Shown here piece by piece: positions 1 through 15,878 of a DNA stretch of 15,878 bases (positions are counted from its first letter, which is position 1; every line of letters starts with the position of its first letter). Where the stretch lies: the NCBI GenBank assembly GCA_038093515.1, contig JBBPSI010000395.1, positions 1 through 15,878 of the forward strand, in the 5' to 3' direction. The translations under genes were made by a program, and so were the position numbers. This DNA is from Butyriboletus loyo. Lineage: Eukaryota > Basidiomycota > Agaricomycetes > Boletales > Boletaceae. The notes below the pieces were generated by a model, which did not search any database, was not told where the DNA came from, and saw only the letters and a program-made list of their open reading frames with translations.

Positions 1-1245
1 TATTCCAACAATAGCTTGTAAGTGATCAGATATGCATTTTCAAGGAAAGTGTTAATCATGGATCTTTGTTCCATGCTTTCCATTGATAGTTTGTAAGTGT
101 TCCAATGTCATTATGAAAAAAGAATACCTGATGGGCCTGCTTTCTGTTGCTCTCCCATTGATAGCGAGTAAGTGGTCTATATGGATTAAATGAAAATATT
201 ACTGATGAGCTTGCCTCTTGCTGTGATCCTATTGATAGCAAGTAAGTGGTCTGATATGAATTTGAAATGAGAATATTGATGATGAATGTGCCTCCTACTG
301 CTCTTTCCTTGATAGCAAGTAAGTGATTTGATATGGTTTGAAAATGAGAATGCTTCTGATCAATGTGCCTTCTACCACTCTTCCATTAATAGCAAGTAAG
401 TGGTCTGATGTTGATTTGAAATAAGGATGCCACTAATGAACATTCCCCCTGCTAATTTCCCATTGATAGTTTGTAAGCAATTTGATGTGGATTTGAATGG
501 GAATATTGCTAATGAGCATGTCTCTGCTACTCTTTCATTGATAGCAAGTAAGTGGTCTGATATAAATTTGATTGAAACAAGAAAACTACTGATGAGCATG
601 CTTTCTGCTGGTCTCCCATTACTAGCAAGTAAGTGGTCTGATGTGGGTTTGAAAAAAGAATGTTGCTGATTAGCATGCCTCCTGCTACTTTCCCATTGAT
701 AGGAAGTAAGTGGTCTGATGTGGCTTTGAAATGAGAATGCTAATAATGAGCCTGCCTTTTGCTGCTCTCCCATTGATAGGGAGTAAGTGGTCTTACTATG
801 TGGATTCAAAATGGGAATGCTGCTGATCAATCTTGCTGCTCTCTAATTGATAGCTTGTAAGTGATCTGAAGTGAATTTAAAACAAGAATGCTACTGATGA
901 ACATGTCTCCTGCTATTCCCATCAATAGGAAGTAAGTAATTTGATATGGGTTTGAAATGAGAATGCTGCTGATCAGCATATCTCCTGCTACCTTCCCTTG
1001 GAAGGCTGTAAGTGGTCTAGTATGAATTTGATGAGACTACTAATGATTTCTTTCCATCCTTTCTGCTGCCATGACTGATAGTTTGTAAGTGCTTTTGTAA
1101 GCATGAGCAAGTGCATGCTGATTGTTGATCAATTTATGTTCATTTCCTTTACTGCCTTTCTATCTATAGGAAGTAAGTGATCTGCCCTGAAATCACAGCA
1201 AGAATGTGATTGATCAATTAATATCAAATTTTATTTTCATAGGAG
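1..1245 (+). repeat. Tandem array of ~75-nt intron-like units
   Basis: About 16 diverged units of 73-88 nt (mostly 74-77) run head to tail. Each starts with GTAAGTG, continues with a conserved GTCTGAT-type stretch and an AAATGAGAATG-type middle, carries CTGAT or CTAAT about 25-40 nt before its end, then a pyrimidine-rich stretch, and ends ATTGATAG. The three bases between one unit's final AG and the next unit's GTAAGT vary (CAA, GAA, TTT, CTT, CGA, GGA, GCT), while the flanking splice-like bases hardly change. Units decay toward the right: those from 1082 on are hard to align, yet the AG-NNN-GT spacing persists. Seen directly: the repeats and their spacing. Inferred: that each unit is a real intron. 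Confidence 0.85.
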
Positions 1246-2174
1246 GTAAATGATTTAATATGCATGAACAATGTGGATCATTAATACATACATGCCTCTC
1301 CCTAACTCTTTCTTCAAAAATAGAATGTTGGTGATATAATGCAGCAAATCTGCATTCTACTCATTGAACTTGTTATTTCACCATACCAAATCCCACAAAA
1401 ATCTATAATTCCTTGAATTTTGATATCCTCAGCTGGTAAGCATTACCTTACTTTCTTAAGAGGTGCAATTATAAATCAGTATTCCCACAGGATGTAAGTT
1501 TAGTTTGTCATGCAACACTTTTGTGTTATTCACCTTCATGCCTTGTTAACTTGCAGAAAGTAAGATCTTTATGTGCTAGCTTTAGTATTCTTGTTCATGA
1601 TTTGAATAGACAGTCAGCTTTTACCCTTGAATATTATATATATATATCACAACTAATGTTGTTCAGATTCTCACCAAGCCTCAGTCCAGCCCAGTAAGTC
1701 TTTTATAATCTAATCACATTATCTATTTTCTGAAATGATTTCTCTCTCTCTCTCTCTCTCTTGCTTTTTTTCAGGTCTCTTTTCATACAGTACAGGGAAT
1801 ATCAATGGTATATGCATCAAAATATATTTGTTTTACTGACTCTTTATGCATCTCAGACCAAGAAGAAAACCAATACATGGAAAGAGATCCTTCAACATGG
1901 CATTGGTAGATAAATTAATTTCTAATTTTTGATAACATTTATAACTTTCTTCATAGACCTCCTACTCCTTCTTCAATATTCCTTCACTCTTGTCCAAAGC
2001 CACTCTGAGGACCCCATTGCTCAGGCAGTACAAAGGTATAAAGCATCTGGGGTATCAGCTCAGGTCTCCAAGAAATTGGACAAGCTCTATATCAAATATT
2101 CTACTGCCAGTTCTGAGGAAGTGAAAGTGAAACTTGTGCTGGATATAATCTTGAATCACTCTCTGTGTAGGTAG
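15..2174 (+). CDS. Partial gene with a chain of 3-nt exons, unknown protein
   Basis: I do not recognise the protein. Candidate exons are 21 trinucleotides, each preceded by AG and followed by GT: CTT at 15, TTT 90, CGA 165, CAA 239, CAA 316, CAA 393, TTT 470, CAA 545, CAA 626, GAA 703, GGA 780, CTT 854, GAA 929, GCT 1005, TTT 1082, GAA 1170, GAG 1243, AAT 1324, CTG 1433, GAT 1491, AAA 1557. Larger exons follow at 1667-1693, 1775-1807, 1857-1905 and 1957-2174. Joined, they give 390 nt with no internal stop (129 residues); the 5' part lies outside the window. Twenty of the first 22 donors read GTAAG; those at 1246 and 1327 are weaker. The encoded microexon stretch is rich in Gln, Glu, Phe and Leu, and the rest is Lys-rich and probably helical. 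Near the end, 2170-2214 looks like another intron (TACTAAC branch site at 2196); using it would change only the last few residues. The last four exons are moderately sure; the microexons need RNA evidence. Confidence 0.55.
1631..1648. repeat. TA-rich simple repeat inside an intron
   Basis: A short run of alternating T and A lies inside the inferred intron 1560-1666, just before a CTAAT branch-like site at 1653. Confidence 0.7.
1740..1761. repeat. (TC)n polypyrimidine tract
   Basis: About eleven TC dinucleotides followed by T-rich sequence lead into the TTTTTTCAG acceptor at 1774. It serves as an exceptionally long polypyrimidine tract for the inferred intron 1694-1774 and supports the plus-strand exon model here. 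Confidence 0.85.
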
Positions 2175-4110: not shown

Positions 4111-6088
4111 TTAGAAAGTGTTTTTCTTGGCCCGATGCATACGCTTCGAGTGACCAGTGTGTCCAGCATGAGTAGTGTTTGTAACAGATCGATTGCACAA
4201 ACCCGTGGAATTGGTAGGCGTGCTCGACCCAGCCGGTAGGCTTGGATCAGTCGGTGTGCCAGATCCAGCTGGTAGGCTGGACGTGGGAATCTTGGAAGGG
4301 GAGGCCGGTGTGCTAGACCCAGCTCCGGACGCAGGAATCGTGGGAGGCAAAGCCGATGTACCGGACCCAGCTGGTAAGCTGGAGGTAGGAGTTGCGGAAA
4401 GAGCCGGTGTGCCAGACCCAGCTGGTAAGCTGGAGGTAGGAGTTGCGGAAAGAGCCGGTGTGCCAGACCCAGTTGGTAAGCTGGAGGTAGGAGTCGCGGA
4501 AAGAGCCGGTGTGCCAGACCCAGCTGGCACACTAGACGTAGGGGTCGTAGAAGGCGATGCCAGGGTGCCGGAGCCAGTTGCAGTGGTAGACCCATTCGAT
4601 ATGCTGTCGTTTACGAAGATGTCGTTTTGAGCACCTGTCAACATGTGTTCGTCATTCCGAGTCTCATCACATACACAAAAGGAGAGACGGAGGAGGGAGA
4701 GGGAAATCAAAGTAACACATACCGTCCGCGAAACCACAATCCGGGTTGTACCCTAGAGTCTTAGGATTCCCATACAAATCGTTCCCATCACCATCGATGT
4801 TGTTCCCTTCAAGTTGGTGGTAGACCATTATCTGCTTCGGTCCATTTACGCACGACCCCGGGTCGCCTTTGCACCAGACAGGCGCTTTCGGGCTTCCGAT
4901 CTGCTTGGGGTTCGGACCGGGAGTGACTTTGCACTTGCTGGGCCACATGTACATGTTTTGTTGTCCACATATACTGGCAACCTGGAACACAGACGATTTG
5001 ATCAGTGGACAAGAAAGATTGGTACTGAGATCATCCGCTTACCCAGTTGAACTGTCGGTTGTCAGGGAGAAATCGTGATCAACAGCCATCAAAAGAAAAC
5101 TAGTTCTTACAGTGCAGATACACCCGCCATCGGGACAGGGAGGCATACTTTCAGGGACGTCGTACGTGGTTAAACGCTTCCACGGGGTACTGCATACCAG
5201 CGGTTAGCACAGTTCTGCAAGGAAATGAAAGCAACGATGAACAAAGAAAGCTCACTGTGTACGAACACTGAACACAACAAGATTGTCAAGCGTCACGTTC
5301 TTGATATCCGACTGCGAGATACGCGTGAGCATCACCGGAAATAGGACCCCAATGAAATGAAAACGAACCGTGTACGCGATAGCAAAGGAAGTACCCAGAG
5401 CAGAGGACTCGTTGAAGGTATGAACTGGTCGAGCAAGCCCTTCAGATATCTACAGAAACAAGACGGAAACAAACTCACGGTTTGGACTGGTGATGCACGC
5501 ATCTCCGGGCACACCAAAATCGTCGGGATAATTCTGCCCGTTTCCCCACTCGGTTAGAATACTAGGATCAGAGGTGAGGGTGGTCCAACGACGGTTACCC
5601 GCCAGCTCCACACGGAAGGTTTGGCCAGCGGGGCTTTAAGAGTCAAGAAAACAGCAGCCAAGAAAAAGACAAGGTAAAGATCGTAAGGAGTTGCATTTAA
5701 GCGATGCACGAAAAGGATGAGCGTACAGAGCCAAAAAGTCACCTTCATCGGGTGGAAACTCGTCGCACTACCCAGTCGTGATTAGCATAAGAGTGTGCTT
5801 GATAAGATTAAAATTTACATGACCAGGGTGGTGGTGCATCCAATAATCGGAGTAGCTCAACTGATAAAGAGGCAAAGTAGGCTCATTGTTGTTGAGATTG
5901 ACCACGGGGGACGATCCCTGCCAAAGCACAGATGTAAACGAAATGTAAGCTGGGAAATTGCGGTAGGAAGGACGGAAGGTCACATTGATGCAGTACATCC
6001 CCTTGAAAAATGCACCGACGTGCGCATGGGCGAGACCAGCTAGAGCGATAGAAATCCATACTCCGGAGTTGAATGTATGCGTGAGCAT
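4111..6088 (-). CDS. Secreted AA14-like lytic polysaccharide monooxygenase
   Basis: Ten exons on the minus strand: 6088-5984, 5917-5819, 5767-5727, 5633-5479, 5424-5369, 5311-5256, 5189-5111, 5051-5043, 4981-4723, 4634-4111, giving 460 residues with phases that agree at every junction. Residues 1-22 are a signal peptide ending AHA, which would expose His23 as the mature N-terminus ([11 protein letters not shown]), as a copper histidine brace needs. His135 (SPNLHTFNESS) sits where AA14 enzymes have the second copper His. Other family-like blocks are EFPPDEGDF with [44 protein letters not shown] and FADGAQNDIF (to residue 293). AA14 enzymes are copper oxygenases reported to act on xylan-coated cellulose; substrate here is inferred. 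The remaining 167 residues are Ser/Thr/Pro repeats with a basic, His-containing end ([14 protein letters not shown]). It may be a divergent sister of AA14 rather than AA14 proper. Confidence 0.75.
4250..4555 (-). repeat. 51-bp minisatellite coding a 17-residue S/T/P repeat
   Basis: About six copies in the last LPMO exon. The three at 4401-4553 are nearly identical with an exact 51-bp period; those to the left are more diverged and one spacing is 48. Each unit codes [17 protein letters not shown] or a variant. The period is a multiple of three, so copy number can change without breaking frame. Such tails are usually heavily O-mannosylated linkers. Confidence 0.9.
5043..5051 (-). other. 9-nt microexon of the LPMO-like gene
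   Basis: Between introns 5052-5110 (GTAAGA...GACAG) and 4982-5042 (GTAAGC...TCCAG) lies a 9-nt exon coding Phe-Asn-Trp. It joins CICT to [13 protein letters not shown], restoring a segment similar to the one after the CIC motif in AA14 proteins. Leaving it out would keep frame but delete three residues of the core. Confidence 0.75.
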
Positions 6089-10411: not shown

Positions 10412-12409
10412 CTACCGTTTCACCTCATACTTTTCCCACCCGATCTCGGCCAGCTTGTCTACCTTGCCCAACACCTCTTTTTCGAGTCCTTCGAGGTATT
10501 CTTCCATCGCCGTGAAGAGATCCGGCATACCTGCGCCAAGAATGCGGACGGCAAGCAGACCCGCGTTCATGCCACCATTGATCGCGACCGTCGCCACCGG
10601 TATACCACGCTGTACGGCACCGCAGAGCGAGTAAGCATGTGTTCTCCTGAACACACTTTGAAAGCGTCCTTACCGGCATCTGGACGATACTATGCAACGA
10701 ATCTACCCCGTCCAATGCACTCCCCTTGACAGGAACGCCTACTACCGGCACACCGGTCATCGCCGCCACCATCCCTGGCAAATGCGCCGCTCCGCCTGCG
10801 CCAGCCACGATGACCCTGAGTCCCCGAGCCCGTGCACTTCGCGCATATGAGACCAACCTGTCTGGTGTACGGTGCGCAGAGACGATCGTGAGCTCGTACG
10901 GAATGCGAAAGCGGTCGAGGATGTGCGCAGCGGGGAGGAGTATGGGGAGGTCCGAGTCAGAACCCATGATGATGCCTACGATCGGGTGCGCGCTTGAGTG
11001 TCCACTCCCTGGAACTGACAAGGGCGGGGCATAAGCGTCGATCTCCGCTTGTGTGCTGGGAATAGGGAGGACAGACAGAAGGAAATTGAGGCGGGCGCGC
11101 AGGATAGCGTCAGTGTCCGCGACGAGAGTCACGTGCCCCATTTTACGGCCCAGCCGGCACTCGGATTTACCATACTGGTGAATAGTGCACCCGGAGACGG
11201 TGAGTGCAGCGGCGGTAAAGGCTTGGGTTGGCTCCATGGAAGTGGAGCTGCTGATGATGTTGAGCATGGCGGCAGAGGGGACTTTAAGGGCCGTGCTTCC
11301 GAGGGGGAGCCCCAGGATGGCGCGGAGGTGATTCTCGTATTGGGAAGTGTAACAAGCTTCGATGGTGTAGTGTCCCGAGTTATGAGGACGAGGGGCGATT
11401 TCGTTGATGTATATGGTACCTGGGGTGGTGGTGAGTAGGTGGACGTTGAAGGCGTGGGCGTGAACGCGACCATGCTTACGGACCATCTTCCATGAGAAAC
11501 ATTTCGACACCAAAGACACCAGCGCCCCCAAATGCTCGAACGGCAGACTCGGCAACACGCTGCGCACGGGAAGCAACAAGGGGGTCGTGGCTCCGGAGGG
11601 GAGCGAAGACGAGATGGCAGATGTTGTTCTTGTGCACGGTCTCGACGGCAGGATAAGAAACTACGTCCCCGTTGGTAGTACGTACAACCATGACTGCAAT
11701 TTCCTTGATGAAAGGGACCCATTTTTCGGCGTATAATGGACGGTTTGCGAGCGCTTGCAGTGCTTCTGTCGTTTGATCGAGCGTCCGAACGACAAAGTTG
11801 CCTCGTCCGTCGTATGCGAGTGTCCGACTCTTGAGCATAAAAGGGAGACCAAGCTGGGTGGCGGTAGCTACTACCGACTCGACGGTCGGCTCGACATTAA
11901 CGAACTCGGAGACGGAACAACCATTGGTACGCAAGTACTTCTTTTGTTCGAGCTTGTCCTGGATGACAGCGATCGTGGAAGGGCTGGGATGAATGACGGC
12001 CCTCGTCCCTAGTGTCGACTCGATCTCTTTGAGCATGGCCACGTCGACATGCTCGATCTCAACGGTGACAACATCGACTTTGCTCGCGAGTTGTCTTATC
12101 TTGTCTGGATCGGCGAACGAGCCGTCGATATGGGCGAGTGCGGGCGAGCGGGGTGCAATGATCTGTTTCGCTGGTGCTGACTCACCGACATCAAGGATGA
12201 CAAGGTCGATATTGAGCAGAGAAGCAGATGCTGCGAGCATGCGGCCAAGCTGGCCACCGCCTGTTGGGCTCAAATATGTCAGATGCCTTCCGCGACGAAT
12301 ATGAGATGGACATGGTAATCTGGGAGCAGTAGTGAGGACATCGCTGAACGACTCCAAGGAGACGAAAAGGCTCACGCGCACCGAGGACGCCGACGACCTT
12401 GCTACTCAT
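10412..12409 (-). CDS. ade2: Phosphoribosylaminoimidazole carboxylase (PurK-PurE fusion)
   Basis: Four exons on the minus strand: 12409-12382, 12260-11484, 11419-10674, 10609-10412, giving 582 residues, close to the 571 of yeast Ade2. The enzyme converts aminoimidazole ribonucleotide to its carboxylated form in de novo purine synthesis in the cytosol. Residues 1 to about 385 are the ATP-grasp PurK part: the start [49 protein letters not shown], and [13 protein letters not shown] at 274-286. Residues about 413-575 are PurE: GSDSD at 421-425, SAHRTP with the catalytic His451, and [11 protein letters not shown] at 475-485. The NGGMNAGLL segment after residue 528 departs from the yeast-type NNxTNAALL, perhaps normal in this lineage. 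The first two donors are weak (GTGCGC, GTCCGT); they were chosen because they alone restore the conserved LGGGQLG and MEDGTIYINE sequences. Loss of this gene in yeast causes red pigment and adenine need. Confidence 0.97.
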
Positions 12410-13782: not shown

Positions 13783-15524
13783 TCACCCCGACGACACTGC
13801 CGTCCAATTCCACACCATCTTTGGTAAATCGTCTGCACCCATCAGCGGCACCTGGTTCGCTCCCTGTATCCCGTAAACTGCATACGTGCCCTTGGAAGCG
13901 AGCGCTTCTTGTGCTAGCACGACATTGGCTGACGGCGTCGAGGTAGGTGCAGCGAGAGACAAGCATTGCGCACTGTTGGTCGGTGTTGCCGACGGTGTTT
14001 GCGAGATCTGCGACTGTGTTCGGTTGGACCCCGATGGGAAGGCGAACCCGTAGTACCCTGGACAGTCGTCCGTCGGGAATCGGTATGCGCTGGGCCGATC
14101 GTGATCTATGAGATCGGCGCGAAAGCACGAGTGAGGCTAGAGAGCAACGTACACGTAGACGCTCCGTAGGAACGGCAATCCGAGCACAATGCTCGGCTGT
14201 GCAGTATCAGTCCTATTCTTGATACCCACGGGACATGACCCAGGAGAGGATACCCCAGACCGAGGTCTTAATAAATTGCCTGTGGAATCGATCGGATAGT
14301 CGACCCCGTTGATCGTCGCCGTCAATGCAACGTACGGCGACTGAGGCGGACCAGATGACCCTGTGGGAGTAGAAGAGTCGGACGTGCAGTTGTATTCGAC
14401 GAGCCCCATGTCAGGGATGAGTCCAATAGGTTGTGGGACGGGTCCCGTCGAGTTAGGGTTGTTGAAATAAGTGTCTGCATCGGGAAGCGAAATGAACAAC
14501 GAGACTAGATCACGCAAGGTCAGCCACGGATCGATCGACACTGATGTATGAATTCTCACAAGAGTCGAGTGCAGCATTCAGGATTCCCGTATATGGTACG
14601 AATTGGCCATCATAGCCCTTCACGCCATCAAAGTCAAAGGTGTTGAAATAATCACCCTGGGGATCCGGGGTCTGGTCGAGTTCCACCCAATTGATCGTCC
14701 CTTCATAGTCGTTTGGGTCGAGTGCTCCGATCGTAATCTTTGGGTTCGCGGCATCGAACCGCATGCCGACAACAGGATTGAGGAGAAAAGATGATTGATG
14801 GAGGTGGGTGAGGATATGTTGTGCGATATCAGTAGTATTAAGCGGATCGAGGAAGAGACCGAGATGGCCATTCCAGATAGAATTCGCGAAGGTTAGATTG
14901 GAGCCATCGAGTATGTTTACTGTTGAAGGTCGCAGGAGTGAATGACTGCCCTAGGCGACGAGAATCGTCCACTTGCCAAAGGGTTGGTCTGGGACACTGA
15001 AAAGGCCCCCGAATCCAACTGTGTCGGAAACATGCACCCCGCTGAATGACGGCACGGACGCACTCCAAGCAGTGTTGTTCGTCTACCATGGAATACTTAG
15101 CAACACGCCTAAACTAACCCAAGCGCGACAAGCTCCACCAATGGTATTGTAAGAGTAGAAAAAAGTGTGGACGCACCTTGAAGGTCGACGACAAGGATGG
15201 ATCGAACATCGTTGTCCCAGCACAGAGGATACAGTCGGACCCATACGTAGCAAGGAATCCAGACGACATGTCAACGGTGAGGTTTATTTGTTGAGGTGGT
15301 GTCCCAACGAGGACTGGTACGGTGGAAGGAATGTAAGCGTCCTCTGAGAGATAGGGTGGGACGTTCATTGGGAGCGTAGCCCAAGCTGCATGTATGAAGC
15401 CATGATTGTCAATAAACGATCTCAAAATTTTACGCAAAGACTTGCTGCCTGAATTTGCTTCCACGTATGAGAGGGTGGACGATATGGAGCCAAGTACTAT
15501 GAGTGACGCCTGGAAGGTCGACAT
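13783..15524 (-). CDS. Secreted A1 aspartic-protease-like protein, catalytic motifs altered
   Basis: Six exons on the minus strand: 15524-15434, 15385-15177, 15082-14977, 14919-14560, 14504-14153, 14089-13783, giving 474 residues. Residues 1-23 look like a signal peptide (MSTFQASLIVLGSISSTLS, then YVEA). The pepsin fold is shown by VLVGTPPQQINLTVD, CILC at 81-84, FDPSLSSTF, SDTVGFGG, NPKITIGALD, GTINWVELD and LGLPFLRSVYVAYRF with a terminal Cys loop (DDCPGYYGFAFPSG). The first catalytic motif, normally D-T-G, reads Asp69-Met-Ser; the second, normally D-[ST]-G, reads Asp254-Ser-Phe. The Asp residues are 185 apart, as in active pepsins, but both Gly are gone, so activity is doubtful. Several N-glycosylation sequons fit secretion. 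Intron 14920-14976 begins GC. The first intron (15386-15433, 48 nt, GTAAAA...GCAG) has no stop in frame; retaining it would give 490 residues. An in-frame ATG at 15569 is an alternative start. Confidence 0.9.
14920..14976 (-). other. GC-AG intron in the protease-like gene
   Basis: The only boundary joining the two exons in frame here uses donor GCAAGT, the usual consensus of GC-AG introns, and acceptor TTCAACAG. It links VPDQPF to VNILDGSN. No GT donor nearby restores the frame. Confidence 0.7.
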
Positions 15525-15878
15525 TTGTAAATGTCGGTTCGTTGGAGAACCCAATGGATGGCAGCGCATTACAGACAACGCCAGATTGTATACGGGTAGT
15601 GACCGTAGTGCTGGGTGTAGTGCAGAGACCGGCTAGAGACAGTCAAGCGGACAGCCAGATTGCTTTCGAGTGGAAAAATCGGAGTTGATGCTGGAGTCGG
15701 CTGAGCGGTGCCGTCATATCATCATCCAGGATCAACTGGCGTTTGCCTTCCGGAACTTTGATTCGTGAATGTCCCTCGCAGGCTCAGCCGGCATAGTAGG
15801 GCTGCAACCGACAGGATAGACCACAATCGCCGGTACCATTGGACATCGAGTGGCAGGCCTTAGGCCGGTCATACCTGA
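15525..15878. other. Upstream region of the protease-like gene
   Basis: This is the 5' flank of the minus-strand protease-like gene and runs to the window edge. I see no further gene and no promoter element that I can name with confidence. Confidence 0.4.

Follow-up and report, generated by a model that had tools for sequence, protein, structure and literature searches.

Here we describe a predicted array of single-codon exons in a Butyriboletus loyo GTPase gene. The window, the whole 15,878-nt stretch of contig JBBPSI010000395.1 that was analysed, begins with 21 successive triplets, each between an AG and a GT, which are very probably exons that supply one codon apiece. Gene structure, phase, codon variability and family, as reported below, are properties of the DNA itself. 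Taken as a whole, the interpretation we favor, a single-codon array in a GTPase gene encoding a selection-diversified, recognition-like loop, is likely. Within it, diversifying selection together with concerted evolution is the probable driver of the variable middle of the array, and the chances that the loop serves recognition, which is argued by analogy, stand about even.

A probable chain of 3-nt exons in the window

The first-pass annotation of this DNA had claimed 21 AG-NNN-GT sites in a row, 58-110 nt apart and mostly followed by GTAAG. All 21 are present at the positions listed below, with spacings of 58-109 nt, and GTAAG begins the donor in 19 of them, the exceptions being GTAAAT (1243) and GTTGGT (1324). 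Tandem Repeats Finder reports a 77-nt period at window 78-1047 with 69% matches. Under a loose rule that joins any AG-NNN-GT sites 50-120 nt apart, and so may take in non-exon sites, the longest chain within window 1-1700 is 23 on the plus strand and 1 on the reverse strand. The longest chains in 500 dinucleotide shuffles of this interval averaged 1.7, with a maximum of 6. Spacers of 0-12 nt other than 3 gave chains of at most 9 (at length 7), and in the remainder of the window the loose rule reached 6 on the plus strand and 3 on the minus strand.

The 21 triplets translate to LFRQQQFQQEGLEAFEENLDK. As had been proposed, they are sense codons in phase with four downstream exons (1667-1693, 1775-1807, 1857-1905 and 1957-2174), forming a single open frame to the stop at 2174. 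Six sites, one of them common to the window and contig C75 (see below), allow two overlapping readings, one being a stop triplet; a scored finder that is blind to codons took the neighboring non-stop reading at all six. The final triplets AAT, CTG and GAT are kept in paralogs together with their introns, and the window repeats are not.

1-1666, plus: single-codon exon array with introns, 21 of 28 predicted exons (splice-site chain; C75 identity)
15-17, plus: 3-nt exon CTT (Leu)
90-92, plus: 3-nt exon TTT (Phe)
165-167, plus: 3-nt exon CGA (Arg)
239-241, plus: 3-nt exon CAA (Gln)
316-318, plus: 3-nt exon CAA (Gln)
393-395, plus: 3-nt exon CAA (Gln)
470-472, plus: 3-nt exon TTT (Phe)
545-547, plus: 3-nt exon CAA (Gln)
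626-628, plus: 3-nt exon CAA (Gln)
703-705, plus: 3-nt exon GAA (Glu)
780-782, plus: 3-nt exon GGA (Gly)
854-856, plus: 3-nt exon CTT (Leu)
929-931, plus: 3-nt exon GAA (Glu)
1005-1007, plus: 3-nt exon GCT (Ala)
1082-1084, plus: 3-nt exon TTT (Phe)
1170-1172, plus: 3-nt exon GAA (Glu)
1243-1245, plus: 3-nt exon GAG (Glu), donor GTAAAT
1324-1326, plus: 3-nt exon AAT (Asn), weak donor GTTGGT; AAT in paralogs too
1433-1435, plus: 3-nt exon CTG (Leu); CTG in main-subfamily paralogs, TTG in C6
1491-1493, plus: 3-nt exon GAT (Asp); GAT in paralogs too
1557-1559, plus: 3-nt exon AAA (Lys), the last of the array
1667-1693, plus: downstream exon, 27 nt, ILTKPQSSP (homology mapping and frame)
1775-1807, plus: downstream exon, 33 nt, VSFHTVQGISM (frame and splice sites; unplaced by homology mapping)
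1857-1905, plus: downstream exon, 49 nt (homology mapping and frame)
1957-2174, plus: last coding exon with stop, ...LLLLLQYSFTLVQ...NHSLCR (homology mapping and frame)

The complete gene and its identity

The 21 sites proved to be part of a longer array. Window positions 1-1454 are identical to C75:2260-807, and C75 adds seven N-terminal P-loop GTPase exons and seven further triplets upstream, giving a 28-exon array (KHQGAGLLFRQQQFQQEGLEAFEENLDK). Its 28 codons are in phase with the seven N-terminal and the four C-terminal exons, and the spliced gene model is predicted to encode 508 residues. The last 806 bases of C75 diverge inside the array, have no real match to the window and look Copia-like by eye; this departure (L009 1-806) is either an insertion allele or an assembly join.

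The PF01926 (MMR_HSR1) profile scores 29.2 bits in the window gene and 24.0 in the paralog C46b, with a cut-off of 21.9. Among database relatives, P0060 (23.7) and P0062 (24.7) exceed this cut-off, and P0003 (21.8) and P0170 (19.6) fall below it. A search with the C46b paralog returned 550 proteins at E<=0.001; the named top matches among the best 120 are from Boletales, and the best match among those listed is from Butyriboletus roseoflavus, with 66% identity over 71%. By profile and homology, the host gene is an MMR_HSR1-type P-loop GTPase of the Boletales 'G domain-containing protein' family. The array is predicted to lie after the G domain and its helical extension, which ends in a WFPH motif, and before the C-terminal helical part. 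Profile searches of two gene models found no match to NACHT or to ankyrin repeats, and NB-ARC was sub-threshold in one of them (20.5 vs 23.5 bits).

Splice features of the array introns

The scored finder delimited 462 array introns with a median length of 72 nt and a range of 50-134 nt. The donor is GTAAGT in 346, the acceptor TAG in 356, CAG in 70 and AAG in 36, and CTRAY lies between +10 and -8 in 314, a count made without a chance control. Were an intron retained, the frame would be lost or a stop gained in 450 of the 462 cases. Splice sites 3 nt apart cannot be occupied simultaneously, so the introns would be removed one after another by intron definition, as the first-pass annotation had also argued. 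Skipping a 3-nt exon never shifts the frame; it would lose one residue, and for this reason alternative splicing could add variants.

An array family across the genome

In searches of the same genome, the G-domain part matched 14 loci, which lie on 12 contigs, and gave weaker matches on five further contigs; the C-terminal part was found at 12 places and array DNA on 14 contigs besides that of the window. A census with the scored finder comprised 17 arrays or pieces at 16 loci, C8 being counted as two halves and the window being left out because C75 covers its array. These hold 481 single-codon exons and no stop, where about 13 stops are expected from positional composition; the shifted frames of the triplet codons contain 8 and 44 stops in 464 codons. 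The longest unbroken chains have 52 (C159a), 51 (C111), 43 (C6), 42 (C159b) and 40 (C46b) exons, and C149 has chains of 39 and 18 split by one irregular unit.

At the family loci, exon lengths of 0-2 and 4-15 nt gave no chain of 4 or more, compared with the 481 triplets at length 3, and the opposite strand, examined at 27 loci or windows, gave no chain of 4. A pair of successive 3-nt exons flanked by GTAAG introns is found in at least 255 overlapping places of the genome, as opposed to 12 for a reversed-pattern control. Genome-wide, arrays with GTAAG donors were found in one place for 4-nt exons and none for 6-nt exons, and 3-nt exon arrays with GTATGT donors in none. A chain of single-codon exons is much the best reading because exon length is fixed at 3 while introns vary from 50 to 134 nt, and because no spacing but 3 chains at the family loci, the frame fits both flanks, the 481 triplets are free of stops and variation sits in triplet positions 1 and 2. 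The chain of 3-nt exons first proposed from the letters gains its support from these same features.

The array is also a tandem repeat, and could be a non-coding minisatellite within one large intron, its splice-like motifs being remnants and the G domain being joined directly to the C-terminal exons. An orphan array piece without a gene (C164:34477-34960, L022 ~4477-4960) and the models P0046, P0106 and P0122, which are short at the array position though themselves predictions, would suit such an arrangement. The exclusive length of 3, the frame on both sides, the lack of stops, the focus of variation on triplet bases 1 and 2 and the conserved codons at both ends make it highly unlikely. Near-identical introns in many copies might instead recall introner-like mobile elements inserted serially into a coding stretch. 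A scan that scored first-look candidates found at least 186 matches to the 72-nt intron, and among the matches listed all are on family contigs or the C164 piece. Insertion would not be expected to leave exons regularly 3 nt long or to fix the third base, and this origin is extremely improbable.

All seven N-terminal exons were mapped in ten copies (C46b, C75, C6, C149, C111, C159b, C8, C337, C46a and C152), and in 10/10 their summed length is a multiple of 3 and open; mapping was partial in C107, C146, C351 and C159a. Mapping of the C-terminal exons succeeded in 11 copies; their internal boundaries are AG/GT, and their length differences are multiples of 3. Homology mapping left the second C-terminal exon unplaced in four of these (the window gene, C6, C158 and C254). 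N-terminal exons, an unbroken array and C-terminal exons all lie on one contig in C6, C46b and C159b. We considered an assembly artefact and rejected it, since arrays recur on many contigs and these three genes are each complete on a single one.

Distant GTPase paralogs on C20, C209, C385, C31 and C218 have no 3-nt chain. Pieces on C107, C146 and C274 have no chain of 4, with C107 and C274 ending near the array. A chain of three 26-nt pieces in L033 was taken as chance. C158 and C254 (L016/L017), which carry arrays at their contig starts, are 96.5% identical over 3.8 kb and may be alleles. C254 looks noisy near its start, and contig ends within arrays appear error-prone.

Constant ends and a variable middle

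Arrays of the main subfamily begin with a conserved block of 15 codons (RGLGREKFLIQDDFL and variants) and end with one of 11 (AQEDFARNLDE and variants). Five genes have both blocks, separated by 14 to 31 variable codons such as AAHHRVARARHAAH in C46b and DALPALLHPRPPDHGPPGFPRPPGFFY in C111. A count over 179 variable units of 11 arrays, unfiltered by letter, gave C 76, G 75, T 22 and A 6 at position 1; C 67, A 59, T 34 and G 19 at position 2; and T 176, G 2 and A 1 at position 3. In the 116 variable units of the five genes the first two bases are near random and the third is T in 114, with pairwise mismatches at positions 1/2/3 of 0.613/0.720/0.034. Ungapped intron mismatch in these genes is 0-0.24 over the first 30 bases and 0-0.44 over the last 20, and the aligned introns of variable units are 4-10% different. 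Selection for length 75, third base T and donor GTAAGT left 90 units; the 72-nt introns are identical in 304 pairs of these units, and the triplet differs in 259 of those pairs. Homogenised repeats with hypervariable codons, as in HIC or PRDM9-like repeats, are found here within one genome.

The constant blocks, whose comparisons share ancestry, also vary. Positions 1/2/3 of the 5' block differ at 0.139/0.082/0.000 (511 codon comparisons) and its introns at 0.040, and all 103 codon differences are nonsynonymous. In the 3' block the values are 0.130/0.111/0.027 (261 comparisons; 56 nonsynonymous), with introns at 0.072. Over the N-terminal part of eight paralogs (28 pairs), synonymous difference (pS) is 0.073, intron difference 0.042 and nonsynonymous difference (pN) 0.028. 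The G domain and helices have pN 0.014 and pS 0.063, the N-terminal tail pN 0.071 and pS 0.101, and on these values the G domain and helices are under constraint.

C158 and C254 differ at 4 of 33 triplet bases and, in the rest of the array, at 15 of 807. One stretch, which looks like conversion, contains several of these non-triplet changes and one triplet change at position 3. Pairs of units with the same triplet have more similar introns within genes (4.5 vs 6.7 differences per 50 nt; 0/300 shuffles as low).

A process that alters just the two bases after the acceptor AG would also produce such arrays, as a natural library of NNT codons. It would account for near-random positions 1 and 2 beside identical introns, for the invariance of a third base at which changes would alter the residue in two-fold codons, for the wholly nonsynonymous 5' block with its unchanged position 3, and for the unit at C158:807, which is GCT where C254 has CAT after more than 60 identical bases on the left. 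Several observations count against it. Similar introns in same-triplet pairs are expected from unit duplication, PRDM9 and HET-type repeats show comparable patterns under strong selection combined with recombination, and splicing may hold the third base. Position 3 does vary in the 3' block and in one of the four C158/C254 triplet changes. We know of no targeted two-base diversification machinery in fungi, and such a process seems unlikely here.

A second array before a protein kinase

The same pattern with GTGAGT donors occurs in 16 places, all on C154, and in none of the controls. At C154:37283-39580 on the minus strand (L038/L039), 33 single-codon exons (RRFYDFEDDFEDFGGFPPLGEELYGPDEELETP), spaced 61-78 nt apart, contain no stop, have a mixed third base and precede protein kinase exons (PF07714, 5.5e-23). 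A 7-nt spacing also chains on C154, 30 long, and is taken as an echo of GTGAGTGAG-like donors. This array shares one 41-nt match at E 0.001, plus weaker ones, with the window array. Paralogs of the kinase gene are present in the genome, and by sequence the array is apparently unrelated to the GTPase family.

Database relatives and a structural model

We hand-picked 27 related proteins from short contigs of JGI or Logan; several of these look like cDNA because they have a long frame without introns. In P0060, P0062, P0165, P0170 and P0175, encoded without introns on contigs of 1.4-1.85 kb, a low-complexity variable stretch directly follows WFPH, the position of the array in the window gene. Of the 18 hand-picked relatives with the motif, nine end within 40 residues past it and nine run for at least 90. 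Among 121 other database relatives with the motif, a group of mostly genome-derived models not inspected singly, 94 end within 40 residues past it and 24 run for at least 90. These early ends fit missed micro-exons but are no proof of them; single-codon arrays are probably overlooked by annotation.

The AlphaFold model of P0003 (mean pLDDT 82) has a GTPase fold and a helical C-terminal part. Its residues 311-340, within the array position, have low confidence, which may reflect flexibility or merely poor alignment. A fold search with this model retrieved generic GTPases, the best being bacterial dynamin-like protein 2j69 (E 4.6e-6, TM 0.30), and the P0004 sequence had no match in the PDB at E 0.01.

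Points against the single-codon reading

Several observations weigh against the reading that we favor. That the array is spliced in living cells, that selection drives the variation, what the loop does and whether its exons are spliced alternatively are all inferred from sequence. The scored finder by design requires AG and GT and favors GTAAG. The stop test on 481 triplets is weakened, as paralogous positions are not independent and NNT is never a stop, and the orphan C164 chain, left out of the 481, has four triplets including TGA. The near-invariant third base is unlike simple selection for amino-acid change.

The relatives are equivocal. The likeness of several to cDNA rests on absent introns, and P0003 and P0149 have no long low-complexity stretch after WFPH. 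Comparison of array residues with relatives reached 6/300 shuffles in one of 20 printed rows, the others being unremarkable. Against P0003, 10-40 of 2000 shuffles were as good as the 3' block in seven of 12 genes and 121-733 in five; for the 3'-block consensus against seven other relatives the figure was 90-1557. A query with the array and C-terminus found no match in the protein collection.

One mapped N-terminal-exon boundary is not AG/GT in each of C6, C111, C337 and C46a. Some family copies may be dead. In C146 (L027) N-terminal exons 1-3 alone were found, exons 4-7 and the array being missing. The irregular C149 unit (L012, reverse strand ~4520) has 2 nt between AG and GTAAG, either a frameshift or a sequence error, and in C8 a retroelement-like frame, Gypsy-like by its appearance, lies between the array halves (L018 6208-9099). 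Together with the orphan piece, C146, C149 and C8 would suit a neutral, decaying expansion of an unconstrained loop whose copies are becoming pseudogenes. Decay predicts equal triplet and intron rates, contrary to the data, in which differences at triplet positions 1 and 2 exceed those of the accompanying introns six- to eighteenfold; the G domain is also constrained. We consider neutral decay very improbable.

A model for the array and its consequences

In the selection-diversified GTPase array that we propose, every residue between WFPH and the C-terminal helices would have an exon to itself, with 28 such exons here and an unbroken run of up to 52 in a paralog. The array would grow as its unit, a 3-nt exon with a ~72-nt intron, was duplicated. 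Unequal exchange and conversion would keep the introns alike, and selection for change would keep the codons diverse. The product would be a length-variable and probably flexible loop that differs between paralogs. Its role would most likely be that of a recognition surface, for nonself or for a partner, a role of the kind suggested for the one-codon exons in the NACHT-ankyrin genes of truffles.

A broader possibility, which we hold to be unlikely, is that fungi more than once evolved a device for recognition-loop diversity with one residue per exon, in which site-directed randomisation of two bases (stop-free NNT) and frame-neutral exon skipping would multiply variants per cell. As part of this proposal, at least two signalling families with no apparent relation to each other, a GTPase and a kinase, would use single-codon arrays in one genome. 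The bolete arrays, if spliced as predicted, would show chains of one-codon exons to be a repeatedly invented route to variable protein regions and not a truffle curiosity. In the GTPase arrays the homogenisation of introns can be told apart from the diversification of codons at the level of single bases, and the idea that dozens of 3-nt exons are spliced stepwise by intron definition is open to direct test.

Other features of the window

Outside the array, the window contains an AA14-type lytic polysaccharide monooxygenase domain (PF22810; 4667-5038, minus), a phosphoribosylaminoimidazole carboxylase (AIRC, PurK_C, ATP-grasp; 10425-12405, minus) and aspartyl-protease-like exons just under the Pfam cut-off (14510-15632, minus). 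A 48-51-nt tandem repeat occupies 4279-4527, and a chain of four AG-NNN-GT sites that the scored finder reports from this repeat, at 4232-4472, is taken as chance.

Comparison with known systems

The comparisons made here refer to excerpts of the cited papers. Among open PMC papers, the titles and abstract openings listed by our searches mention no such array for a GTPase, a kinase or a basidiomycete. Extremely small fungal exons are described in Fusarium CYP621A, with a one-nucleotide exon (PMC12940212), and in Dactylellina lipS, with two 3-nt exons (PMC5639578); these excerpts describe one or two such exons and no array. Host-specific transcripts of Suillus include P-loop GTPases (PMC5065116). 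The micro-exon genes of Schistosoma have exons of 3-81 bp by the abstract or 6-81 bp by the text of the paper, mostly 15 bp, and introns of 0.1-5 kb (PMC10526429). Like the bolete genes they have runs of very short exons, mostly in-frame, and variable products, whereas the bolete exons are single codons.

The pattern of variation has parallels in coding repeats. Some repeats of fungal NLR genes show high internal conservation; the WD repeats of Podospora HNWD genes, for instance, are near-identical with a few hypervariable codons and are shuffled within and between family members (PMC4986451). The bolete repeat shares the near-identity and the few hypervariable codons, but it is mostly intron, with only 3 nt coding. 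Similarly, the PRDM9 zinc-finger minisatellite has key codons that escape homogenisation (PMC3890296), as the bolete array does, although the 84-bp PRDM9 unit is coding and encodes zinc fingers.

The closest precedent in these sources is the immune-receptor NACHT-ankyrin (nank) genes of Tuber melanosporum, in which 'tens' or 'dozens' of codon-sized 3-bp exons are described (PMC4986451, PMC10197012, PMC3689799, PMC9815663, citing Iotti et al. 2012, Fungal Biol 116:261), so that the single-codon layout is already known in fungi. Both systems have tens to dozens of 3-bp exons, here predicted, in an expanded fungal family, and sensor diversification was proposed for the truffle genes. In contrast, the bolete gene encodes a P-loop GTPase, matches neither NACHT nor ankyrin repeats, belongs to a basidiomycete, and has constant ends around a variable NNT middle. 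Alternative splicing of the truffle 3-bp exons is described as diversifying the sensor in the same four papers, while the bolete GTPase family is known here from its genes alone.

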